Below are positions 20,048 to 23,322 of a stretch of 64,000 bases of DNA, piece by piece. Position 1 is the stretch's first letter, and each line of letters starts with the position of its first letter. This DNA is from Gloeobacter violaceus PCC 7421 (lineage in GTDB: Bacteria; Cyanobacteriota; Cyanobacteriia; Gloeobacterales; Gloeobacteraceae): NCBI RefSeq assembly GCF_000011385.1, contig NC_005125.1, forward strand, positions 1,860,001-1,924,000, given 5' to 3'. A program made the position numbers and the translations under genes. The notes below the pieces were generated by a model, which had not been told where the DNA came from, did not search any database, and worked only from the letters and a program-made list of their open reading frames with translations.

Positions 20048-20232
20048 CTTCAAATGCAACACCCGCTTCGCATAGGACGAACACCACGGCTGCTTTGATG
20101 ATGCGGGCAAGTCGCTTCTGGTCACGGCCCTGGGTCGCCTGTTCCACCGGCGCGGGGTCAAAGCCGCTCCCTTCAAAGGCCAGAATACGGCCCTCAACGC
20201 CTACGTCACCGCTGAGGAACACGGACATGGTC
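20048..20232 (+). pseudogene. Decayed 5' fragment of cobQ
   Basis: This stretch aligns with about 40 bp of upstream leader plus the first ~160 bp of intact cobQ (about 21819-22013). Shared stretches include TCGCATAGGAC, GGCTGCTTTGATG, and CTCCCTTCAAAGGCCAGAATA. The fragment has lost 19 nt exactly over the P-loop codons (between 20100 and 20103), which shifts the frame, and it carries scattered mostly silent differences. Similarity stops near 20230 just before the AT-rich membrane-protein gene. The many third-position differences suggest a diverged allele rather than a fresh duplication. Confidence 0.8.
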
Positions 20233-20318: not shown

Positions 20319-21374
20319 ATGCTAGATTCGCTTATTAATTCTGTTTTGGCTTTTCTAACAACTCTAGCTGGCCCTGTAGCGACTTTGCTGGCAGGAATTA
20401 TTACTGCCTGGACTGCTTTCAAAGTTGCAGAATATAACTACCGAACAATAAATTCCAAACAGGTTCAGGAAAGATTACCAATTAAAATTAAGCGCATTGA
20501 GCAAAAAACTATAAACAAGTTGTCTCGCATAGGTGAGCTATTTTGGTGGTCTTGCGTTTGTTTTTTTGCAGTGTTCCCAACCTTCCTCGTTATTCTACTT
20601 GCATCTGAAACAACACGAACTCGACTAGCCAACGATTTGGGTTTTGCCTTGAACTACTTATTCTTGTTTCTTGCAACGATCGCGGCTGCGATTTACTTAA
20701 TACCCTCTACTCAAAAGCTGGAGAGGCAGCTCTCGCCAAAAGCAACAGTAGAGATAGAAGCTCGATGGCAAGACATACTCAGCGCTTGTCGAACGGCTCT
20801 GAGAGCTATTGACGCTAGCATAAAAACCTTTGACTCTGAAGTTGGCCTGATAAGAGCAACGATGAGGGTCAGTTTACTTTCCGTTGGTCAAGAACTGGTG
20901 ATTAGAATTCGCAAACGGGATAGTGACTCTGTTTCCCAGATTCACTTGGTCGAGATTGAGAGCATTTTTCCATTGAAACCAACAAACGCGAACCGTGAAC
21001 CGCAAGGTCATAAGCAAGTGTCAAAAGACGAAGCAAATCTAAGTGAGATTCATGGCATTAATGTAAATAAATTTGTACAGCAGCTAGAGAAGTCTGAAGC
21101 GCGTTCGACCGATGTAGAGGCAGGGACTTTTCTTCCATCCTCTGAAGGTTCTGATACTCATCCTCCATCCAATGTCGTAGGAAGTTTCGATAGAAAGTCT
21201 TGGGAGTTGATACTGAAAGAGATTAGAAAGATAAGAGAAGAAGAATCAGAGCACAAAGTGAAGCCAGAAAATGGAAAATTCAAACGTACATTTGGCTCGG
21301 CAAAAGGCTTGATCAAGGTTGCTCCTGATTTTGATGCACCTTTGCCTAATGACATTATGAAACATTTTGAATGA
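20319..21374 (+). CDS. Three-helix membrane protein with C-terminal antitoxin-like tail
   Basis: 351 residues, AT-rich codon use unlike all neighbours, suggesting transfer. Predicted membrane helices lie at about 8-31, 74-95 and 105-128. A soluble domain follows (about 140-260: alpha helix, then strands such as SLLSVGQELVIRIRKRD, SQIHLVEIESIF and a GINVNKFVQQLE helix). It resembles a small alpha/beta module that in other proteins reads like S-x-x-SWGE...DWGKN, recalled from memory rather than searched. After a low-complexity linker comes a charged helix (302-315) and the last ~30 residues FKRTFGSAKGLIKVAPDFDAPLPNDIMKHFE-like (split here as FKRTFGSAKGLIKV and APDFDAPLPNDIMKHFE). That tail matches the C-terminal toxin-binding peptide of cyanobacterial antitoxins that pair with VapC-like PIN toxins. 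The stop overlaps the PIN start (ATGA). Proposed role: membrane-anchored antitoxin or signal-responsive TA regulator. Confidence 0.7.
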   Translation: MLDSLINSVLAFLTTLAGPVATLLAGIITAWTAFKVAEYNYRTINSKQVQERLPIKIKRIEQKTINKLSRIGELFWWSCVCFFAVFPTFLVILLASETTRTRLANDLGFALNYLFLFLATIAAAIYLIPSTQKLERQLSPKATVEIEARWQDILSACRTALRAIDASIKTFDSEVGLIRATMRVSLLSVGQELVIRIRKRDSDSVSQIHLVEIESIFPLKPTNANREPQGHKQVSKDEANLSEIHGINVNKFVQQLEKSEARSTDVEAGTFLPSSEGSDTHPPSNVVGSFDRKSWELILKEIRKIREEESEHKVKPENGKFKRTFGSAKGLIKVAPDFDAPLPNDIMKHFE

Positions 21375-21757
21375 GTTATTTGCTAGATACCCATGCATTT
21401 CTCTGGTTCATCTCTGGTGATATTCGCCTCTCCACAAACGCAAGAGCAATCATTGAGAACGAAAGCAATGAGACATATCTCAGCGTAGCCAGTATATGGG
21501 AAATATCTATCAAAGCGCGCTTGAGCAGACTCGAACTGATCGGTTCACCGGAGAAAGTAATTCAGGATAATATGTATTCAAACGGATTTATTTGTCTACC
21601 TATCGAAAAGACTCATGCACTCCAAATCTATAACTTGCCTGACTACCATCGAGATCCCTTCGACAGAATCTTGATTGCACAAAGCCAGGTAGAAAATTTG
21701 ATTTTGCTCACCACAGACTCTCAAATTAAACAGTACAATGTCGCCACCATTTGGTAA
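21371..21757 (+). CDS. PIN-domain ribonuclease toxin, VapC-like
   Basis: 128 residues. It starts SYLLDTHAFLWF with the first catalytic acid Asp6; Glu44 lies in SIWEISIKARL; Asp95/Asp98 lie in HRDPFDRILIAQS; and Asp116 lies in LLTTDSQI. These are the four acidic positions of the Mg2+-dependent PIN nuclease site, all intact. Related cyanobacterial PIN toxins cleave tRNA or other RNA and are held in check by an upstream antitoxin. The start overlaps the preceding gene by 4 nt, the standard antitoxin-toxin arrangement, but that upstream gene encodes a large membrane protein instead of a small antitoxin. AT-rich like its partner. Confidence 0.88.
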   Translation: MSYLLDTHAFLWFISGDIRLSTNARAIIENESNETYLSVASIWEISIKARLSRLELIGSPEKVIQDNMYSNGFICLPIEKTHALQIYNLPDYHRDPFDRILIAQSQVENLILLTTDSQIKQYNVATIW

Positions 21758-21849
21758 TTTATCAATGGCTCACTGTCAGACTGCTTGAACGTTCCATGCA
21801 GCCATTAATATCTTGACCCACAACACCTACCTCGCATAGGACAAACACA

Positions 21850-23322
21850 GTGGCTGCTTTGATGGTCGTCGGCACTTCCTCTCACGCGGGCAAGTCACTT
21901 CTGGTGACGGCGCTGGGTCGCCTGTTTCACCGGCGCGGGGTAAAAGTCGCTCCCTTCAAAGGCCAGAATATGGCCCTCAACGCCTATGTCACCGCCGAAG
22001 GCCACGAAATCGGCCACGCCCAGGCGGTGCAGGCCTGGGCCTGCGGACTGGAACCCAGCGTGGCGATGAACCCGATTTTGCTCAAGCCCCAGGGCAATAT
22101 GACCAGCCAGGTGATCTTGAAGGGCAAGCCCGCCGGGGTGTGCGGGGCCGTCGATTACTACCGCGACTACTTTGAACCCGGCTGGCAGGCGGTGGTGGAG
22201 GCACTCGCTGAGTTGCAGTCGCAATACGAACTGGTGATCTGCGAAGGAGCCGGCAGTCCGGCGGAGGTTAACCTGCGCCACCGGGATCTGACCAACATGC
22301 GCGTCGCTTTGCACCTGGGGGCGCCGACACTGCTGGTGACCGACATCGACCGGGGAGGCGCCCTCGCTCACGTCGTAGGTACTTTGCAGGTGCTGCCCCC
22401 CGAGGAGCGCGCCCTCATCAAAGGCATCGTGATCAACAAGTTTCGCGGTTCGCTTGCACTGTTGCAGCCGGGCCTCGACTGGCTTGCCCAGTACACCGGC
22501 GTGCCGGTGGTGGGTGTGCTGCCCTGGCTGGAGATGGCCCTACCCGAGGAAGATTCGATGGGTTTATTCGATCGGCGCGGAGCGCGCAAACAGGCGCAAT
22601 TGGAGATCGTCGTGATCCGACTGCCGCGCATCGCCAATTTCACGGATTTCGACGCCCTGGAAGCAGAACCCAGCGTCCGGGTGCGCTACGTGAGCCCCGA
22701 CGGATACCTTGGTCATCCAGATGCAATTATCCTGCCAGGATCAAAAGCCACCATCCCCGACCTGCTTGCCCTCGAAGCGAGCGGCATGGCTGCACAAATC
22801 CGGGCTTACGGGGGGGTGATCCTAGGAATCTGTGGTGGTCTGCAGATACTGGGAAGCACCATCGACGATCCTGAAGGATTTGAGGGGCACCCCGGCCGCC
22901 ATCCCGGTCTTGGGCTCATCGAGGCTACAACCGTTTTCGAGCCGCTCAAGATTACCCGTCAGGTGCAGGTCGAATCGCGCCTGCCGGCTGGGGAGCCTGT
23001 CGTCGGTTACGAAATTCATCAGGGGCAGACGACTTTTGCTCCCACCCTCGAAGCGCTGTTTGCCGAGCCCCATCTCGGCGTGGTCAGCAGTAATCGCCGC
23101 GTCTGGGGTACCTATTTGCACGGCCTGTTGGACAACCACGCCTGGCGTCGCCACTGGCTCAACGCGCTTCGGGAGCGCCGGGGCCTGCCACAGCTCCCCG
23201 TGCAAAGCGGCCATTACCGTGAACAGCGCGAGGAGATGTTCGAGCGTCTCGCCGACGCCTGGGAGCCCCATCTGCCGATCGATGGGTTTGCCCAGTTGGC
23301 CGGGTTTGCCTCCCAGGTGTAA
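21850..23322 (+). CDS. cobQ: Cobyric acid synthase CobQ/CbiP
   Basis: Amidates side chains of adenosyl-cobyrinic acid a,c-diamide with glutamine, in cobalamin synthesis. 490 residues, full length. The N-terminal DTBS-like ATPase begins [21 protein letters not shown] and contains KGQNMALNA and CEGAGSPAEVNL. The C-terminal class I glutamine amidotransferase has GVILGICGGLQILG with the catalytic Cys and GTYLHGLLDN with the His. GTG at 21850 is the start; the corresponding segment is also present in the left remnant at 20048-20232. The right remnant at 24925-24990 repeats its 3' end. Composition is high-GC like the chromosome, unlike the TA genes just upstream. Confidence 0.95.
   Translation: MAALMVVGTSSHAGKSLLVTALGRLFHRRGVKVAPFKGQNMALNAYVTAEGHEIGHAQAVQAWACGLEPSVAMNPILLKPQGNMTSQVILKGKPAGVCGAVDYYRDYFEPGWQAVVEALAELQSQYELVICEGAGSPAEVNLRHRDLTNMRVALHLGAPTLLVTDIDRGGALAHVVGTLQVLPPEERALIKGIVINKFRGSLALLQPGLDWLAQYTGVPVVGVLPWLEMALPEEDSMGLFDRRGARKQAQLEIVVIRLPRIANFTDFDALEAEPSVRVRYVSPDGYLGHPDAIILPGSKATIPDLLALEASGMAAQIRAYGGVILGICGGLQILGSTIDDPEGFEGHPGRHPGLGLIEATTVFEPLKITRQVQVESRLPAGEPVVGYEIHQGQTTFAPTLEALFAEPHLGVVSSNRRVWGTYLHGLLDNHAWRRHWLNALRERRGLPQLPVQSGHYREQREEMFERLADAWEPHLPIDGFAQLAGFASQV

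Follow-up and report, generated by a model that had tools for sequence, protein, structure and literature searches.

The window (the whole 64,000-nt stretch of Gloeobacter violaceus PCC 7421 DNA that was analysed) contains a pair of overlapping genes, in which the first encodes a 351-aa protein and the second encodes a PIN toxin. The preliminary description had reported, within 20319-21757, a gene for a 351-aa protein upstream of the PIN toxin gene, a 4-nt overlap between the two, and a three-helix membrane protein as the product of the first. We found the frame (20319-21374) present as described; it shares the tetranucleotide ATGA with the 128-aa PIN frame, and hydropathy analysis placed its hydrophobic segments at about the residues listed here. 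The features of the locus are:

20057..20223, + strand: partial copy of the 5' end of a cobQ-like gene, upstream of the pair (direct repeats)
20319..21374, + strand: gene of the putative membrane-anchored antitoxin, 351 aa, consisting of module, linker and VapB tail (ORF; VapB and soluble-antitoxin profiles)
20343..20420, + strand: predicted membrane helix 1 (residues 9-34), with an N-terminus lacking K/R and predicted to lie outside (hydropathy, charge count)
20532..20609, + strand: predicted membrane helix 2 (residues 72-97), following a loop that is rich in K/R and predicted to be cytoplasmic (hydropathy, charge count)
20640..20711, + strand: predicted membrane helix 3 (residues 108-131); the part C-terminal to it is predicted to be cytoplasmic (hydropathy, charge count)
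20721..21092, + strand: soluble middle domain (residues 135-258), common to all four family members (BLASTP, leave-one-out profile)
21093..21236, + strand: variable linker (residues 259-306); that of G. morelensis is shorter (alignment)
21237..21371, + strand: putative toxin-binding tail of VapB/Phd antitoxin type (residues 307-351), beginning with the block of ~90% DNA identity with G. morelensis (profiles, alignment)
21371..21374, + strand: ATGA, where the antitoxin stop codon overlaps the start codon of the toxin gene (sequence)
21371..21757, + strand: gene of the PIN toxin (VapC type), 128 aa (Pfam PIN, E=5e-14; seven PIN proteins aligned)

GC content drops from ~0.61 in the surroundings to 0.40-0.46 across the pair, the 351-aa gene itself having 0.42. 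The partial cobQ-like copy was recognized from direct repeats with 21821-22006 (D1, 121 nt, 90%; D2, 44 nt, 84%), and the pair sits between this copy and the full cobQ-like gene, which begins near 21850. The partial copy is a footprint of insertion or duplication and has no part in the function of the pair. As a side observation, the pair appears to be inserted between two cobQ-like 5' copies (20057-20223 and 21821-22006), the upstream one having diverged.

VapBC systems were taken to consist of a PIN toxin and, adjacent upstream, a small soluble antitoxin with an N-terminal DNA-binding domain and a C-terminal segment related to VapB or Phd. The toxin fulfils its part of this definition: in the alignment of seven homologues the acidic residues D6, E44, D95, D98 and D116 are invariant, so far as an alignment can tell leaving the active site intact. 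PDB searches with the PIN protein and its family gave no useful match, and a single-sequence AlphaFold2 model (pLDDT 32) was too low in confidence to interpret. Gene order is also that of VapBC, with the antitoxin gene adjacent upstream and an ATGA overlap that is kept in G. morelensis.

The C-terminal segment of the 351-aa protein, FGSAKGLIKVAPDFDAPLP, matched the NCBIfam family NF050009 (TA_VapB) at residues 314-343 with E=4.2e-7. This match falls short of the cut-off for the full-length family, as a partial domain should. We also built a soluble-antitoxin profile from eight proteins with the same tail, taken from the same genome, other cyanobacteria and Caballeronia. All eight are encoded upstream of a PIN gene with a 4-nt overlap when the first start codon is taken (the annotated start of the Caballeronia gene gives 1 nt). 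This profile matched the window protein with E=2.6e-11 and the G. morelensis protein with 1.2e-10, the best of 2000 shuffles reaching only 0.017. The resemblance to the toxin-binding tail of antitoxins that had been proposed from the sequence alone is thereby confirmed in profile searches, and the VapBC expectation of a segment related to VapB/Phd is satisfied. The placement of the tail needed revision: it is a toxin-binding type of tail at the C-terminus as described, but its conserved block, with the core R.FG..KG...A.DFDAPLP.D...FE, starts at about residue 307 and not at 315-320.

The significant match spans only profile positions 37-76, the C-terminal, toxin-binding half, indicating that this half is present and the DNA-binding half is missing. 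With 351 aa, three hydrophobic helices and a match to the C-terminal half alone, the protein does not meet the expectation of a small soluble antitoxin with an N-terminal DNA-binding domain. Since that usual defining feature is absent, we regard the fusion as a variant of type II toxin-antitoxin (TA) systems and not as an ordinary member. The missing half fits the earlier suggestion that autoregulation by DNA binding is absent or different, on which we have no data.

The tail itself is present in 93 of 292 cyanobacterial genomes. Among the roughly 150 tail sites listed in these genomes, open frames were short (up to ~145 aa) with two exceptions of 368 aa (the window protein) and 281 aa, so the membrane fusion is an outlier among many soluble antitoxins. 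The 281-aa frame (genome G270) was considered as a second fusion and rejected, being an ordinary Phd antitoxin plus upstream open frame. Using tblastn, the tail was also found in Phd/YefM antitoxins on plasmids, and the one that was checked adjoins a VapC gene. Separately, one soluble antitoxin upstream of a PIN gene (L007) combines the same tail with an N-terminus that is not of the Phd type seen in its relatives, which suggests that the tail is portable among N-terminal domains in general.

The expectation that relatives would carry the same three-helix plus antitoxin-tail gene next to a PIN gene was met in G. morelensis, where a pair of the same architecture stands at the same chromosomal site before cobQ. 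This genome is identified as G. morelensis MG652769 by a gene at 142852-143208 of its contig 2, for which PLSDB gives identical coordinates on plasmid pGMOR1. Between the two species the flanking chromosome is ~92% identical, and the DNA from 21237 to the end of the toxin gene is ~90% identical. Upstream of 21237, in the module, just 33-53% of positions in aligned codons are identical and synonymous sites are saturated. The proteins behave in the same way, with 93% amino acid identity in the tail, 91% in PIN and ~26% in the module. The dN/dS values of 0.06 for the tail and 0.12 for PIN suggest that both are under purifying selection. Judged from these alignments, the simplest reading is that, at the linker/tail junction, the membrane module has probably been replaced by a different module from its own family. 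Very rapid evolution confined to the module is the less likely alternative, although it cannot be excluded.

Other observations concern the wider locus. In G. morelensis the DNA upstream of the pair is different and includes a Uma2-type gene (L022:78-578). In a third Gloeobacter genome (G295), only the last PIN codons remain, directly before cobQ (L057:171-210) and joined to unrelated sequence; this remnant is a scar of the same locus, from which the toxin locus was lost by deletion or insertion. In another genome of the genus (G294), nothing matched the N-terminal 217 residues of the cobQ-like protein at 1e-5, although the other three genomes of the genus have it.

The layout reaches further than the preliminary description had claimed: the module is also fused to partner elements of MazF and Shedu. 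In the same genome, a 324-aa protein (L012:1219-2193) carries a homologous module (BLASTP 2e-9 against the window protein), and its gene is followed, with a 1-nt overlap, by a PemK/MazF toxin gene (Pfam PF02452, 1e-17). MazEF systems combine such a toxin with a soluble DNA-binding MazE; the toxin is there, and in place of MazE stands the membrane module. The tail of this protein, DDPYDWGETDPKTIGKPVYFDPELG, is 68% identical over 28 residues to the tail of a soluble antitoxin-like protein of plasmid pGMOR1 (WP_230844405) and, over 17 residues, 53% identical to the antitoxin that accompanies a second MazF of the same genome, the two MazF proteins being 49% identical.

Plasmid pGMOR1 of G. morelensis offered some side observations. 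The orphan antitoxin-like protein on it (L026:2249-2608, 119 aa) has a MazF-type tail and no annotated MazF gene alongside. Nearby lie eight CRISPR-like repeats of 36-37 nt at a spacing of 71-81 nt (L026:1708-2258, L127:1073-2812), and the final one, a degenerate copy, overlaps the orphan gene's start codon. The array adjoins a gene annotated as transposase; its product resembles type V C2c8 at 1.5e-83 (NF038192), a match that stays below cut-off.

The third locus of the G. violaceus genome encodes a 384-aa protein (L025:1036-2190) with a module that matches the MazF-linked one at 2e-12. The next gene, overlapping by 1 nt, encodes the Shedu nuclease SduA (PADLOC PDLC00379, 1.5e-81; Pfam SduA_C, 9e-30), which qualifies the locus as Shedu. 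The C-terminal domain of the 384-aa protein is homologous to a protein of ~100 aa whose gene immediately precedes the Shedu gene in other cyanobacteria (2e-5 to 2e-6, several genomes), and one of these upstream partners aligns weakly with a ParE model (0.06). When this partner domain was surveyed, it stood alone (~100 aa) in most genomes, lay in frames of 406-424 aa in five genomes, and was fused to the membrane module in Gloeobacter only. The two long frames that were read (L054 and L126) have a common N-terminal region, with a Pfam AHJR-like match in L054. As an observation in its own right, L025:1036-2822 (chromosome ~4072739-4074525) is a two-gene Shedu variant with exchangeable N-terminal parts.

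That the four modules form one family was supported by leave-one-out searches, in which each member was sought with a profile of the other three. The E-values were 2e-16, 1e-10, 2e-13 and 1e-6, with the best decoys at 0.0015-0.16; for the soluble middle domain alone they were 1e-13, 2e-8, 6e-11 and 8e-6, beside the window protein's BLASTP match to the MazF-linked paralogue (E=2e-9). In all four members, K and R are absent ahead of helix 1; loop 1 contains 6-11 of them and loop 2 contains 0-2. By the positive-inside rule, this distribution predicts that the C-terminal tail of all four is cytoplasmic, where it would be required. All module genes have a low GC content (0.40-0.43 against ~0.60 in their surroundings), which suggests a foreign origin.

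No Pfam, NCBIfam, PADLOC or PDB family was found for the module. None of the four proteins matched a PADLOC model, which would have placed it in a known anti-phage defence family. Profile searches of 386 and 390 cyanobacterial genomes found no relatives outside the two Gloeobacter species, and none appeared in genome-contig and viral-contig collections, the first genome scan of which used poor patterns. Weak module-profile matches (E 0.002-0.009) in G095, G106, G280, G457 and G552 were taken as chance, and those that were read (L039 and L062) look unrelated. PHROG 18859 aligned with residues 6-60 at E=0.0015. With a module of unknown fold (the AlphaFold2 model of the 351-aa protein from its single sequence, at pLDDT 46, was too low in confidence to interpret), a sensor role has not been demonstrated; and because the family is known from four proteins of two species only, the argument for modularity rests on few events.

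The pair and its paralogues can be set against known systems. The Phd/YefM + PIN (VapC) loci of cyanobacteria and proteobacteria (e.g. WP_025602117/WP_165989623 of Caballeronia pSBC1_4) resemble the window pair in the tail, in the overlapping genes and in a PIN protein 38-52% identical, but their antitoxin is small and soluble, whereas the window protein has a three-helix module as its N-terminal half and no DNA-binding half. Likewise, the L012 tail is of the YDWG..DP..IG type of soluble MazEF systems (the pair at L033:1204-1973 of the same genome, and the pGMOR1 orphan), in which a soluble N-terminal domain takes the place of the membrane module. In Shedu loci (SduA, PADLOC PDLC00379) with a small upstream partner, this partner occurs alone (~100 aa) or ends a protein of 403-411 aa with an AHJR-like domain; at L025 the same partner domain is the C-terminus of a membrane protein. 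The hyperpromiscuous Panacea (PanA) antitoxins also use one common part for many toxin families (PMC8832971). However, the shared Panacea part is the neutralizing one, whereas in Gloeobacter the shared part is the membrane module and the toxin-specific part is exchanged; a Pfam search gave no Panacea match to the module. Zorya, Kiwa and SNIPE (PMC12904381) also tie a membrane component or signal to a nuclease, but the Gloeobacter module proteins match no PADLOC model. HigX of Caulobacter, a membrane-bound regulator adjoining higBA (PMC13384398), was considered as a precedent and rejected because it is not an antitoxin.

For the membrane-anchored antitoxin itself we found no earlier description, a search that covered open-licence literature only and is weak evidence of novelty. 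A 2009 survey of type II TA systems detected none with a membrane component and left out three membrane-protein gene pairs for that reason (PMC2701414), so such systems may have been filtered out of later searches too.

We consider it fairly probable that the pair is a type II TA system of the VapBC kind, in which a three-helix membrane module replaces the DNA-binding half of the antitoxin, giving a membrane receptor/antitoxin that holds interchangeable nucleases. The membrane anchor, the identity of the tail and the modularity of the fusion proteins rest on sequence: on the cognate-type tail, the gene overlap, the hydrophobic helices, the charge topology, the homology of the modules, the different modules on the same tail-toxin unit and the three nuclease families. 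The tails of soluble VapB/Phd systems bind and inhibit the nuclease toxin. By analogy with these homologous tails, we infer that the tail inhibits the PIN nuclease, and because of this inference the nuclease is taken to be held at the membrane.

On this VapBC-like reading, the module would lie in the cytoplasmic membrane with its N-terminus out and its C-terminus in, and the middle domain and linker would display the VapB tail to the cytoplasm. The PIN RNase, whose overlapping gene is probably translationally coupled, would be captured by the tail and kept at the membrane in inactive form. It would be set free, and growth would stop, when the module senses a disturbance (phage entry or a loss of membrane energization, for instance) or is degraded by a membrane protease. 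For the other nucleases the module would do the same job, with the C-terminal partner element alone being changed (MazF tail or Shedu partner domain). Binding and inhibition of PIN by the tail, the membrane location in the cell, the trigger or membrane-triggered release and the physiological role are inferred, as interaction, toxicity and localization data are lacking.

The main rival concerns localization in place of inhibition: through the tail, the module would dock a nuclease that is active or primed, so that it meets incoming phage nucleic acid at the membrane, as in SNIPE or Zorya. In favour of this reading, defence at the injection site by membrane-placed systems has precedents (PMC12904381), the three partners include Shedu, an anti-phage DNA nuclease, and inhibition by the small Shedu partner domain is unproven. 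Yet VapC and MazF are RNases for which injected DNA is no obvious target, and an uninhibited toxin would be costly. In the described families, moreover, the antitoxin tails of VapC and MazF occupy or distort the active site. We regard this possibility as unlikely.

It could also be supposed that the fusion is an accidental chimera, in which a tail joined by chance to a membrane protein gene still neutralizes and the membrane part has no role. The region does bear marks of rearrangement (the partial cobQ copy and the low GC), and the module was not found outside Gloeobacter. However, one module family is joined to the partner elements of three unrelated nucleases, the second species has a module that is different but of conserved topology, and a needless part would hardly be swapped for another member of its own family. 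We accordingly give this explanation little weight.

Even less can be said for a soluble antitoxin peptide made by internal initiation or proteolysis, with the long protein as a precursor or a separate membrane protein. An in-frame GTG codon lies just upstream of the tail in both species (window 21258; L022:1534 in G. morelensis), and the strictly conserved DNA block starts near these codons, but their positions differ between the two species, each of which has tail and module in one frame. Reversed roles, with the membrane module as a toxic pore and the soluble nuclease or its complex as guard, are scarcely credible: effectors with two or three membrane helices are frequent in defence systems, but each of the three neighbours is a nuclease in its own right that elsewhere has a soluble partner, the element fused to the module is in every case a homologue of that partner, and the PIN active site is intact.

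The trigger of chromosomal TA systems is a long-standing question, and a membrane part within the antitoxin is a place to seek the signal. With three nuclease families sharing one membrane part, direct swap experiments are possible. At one of the three loci at least, the presence of a Shedu nuclease suggests a role in phage defence, although its small partner has not been shown to be an inhibitor. More broadly, and only tentatively, since we are less than evenly convinced of it, a Gloeobacter membrane receptor platform with interchangeable plugs may place VapC, MazF and Shedu under the control of an event at the cytoplasmic membrane, which would turn TA pairs into membrane-triggered abortive-response systems. 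Photosynthesis in Gloeobacter, which lacks thylakoids, takes place in the cytoplasmic membrane, and for this reason a growth switch linked to that membrane would be of particular interest in this organism.
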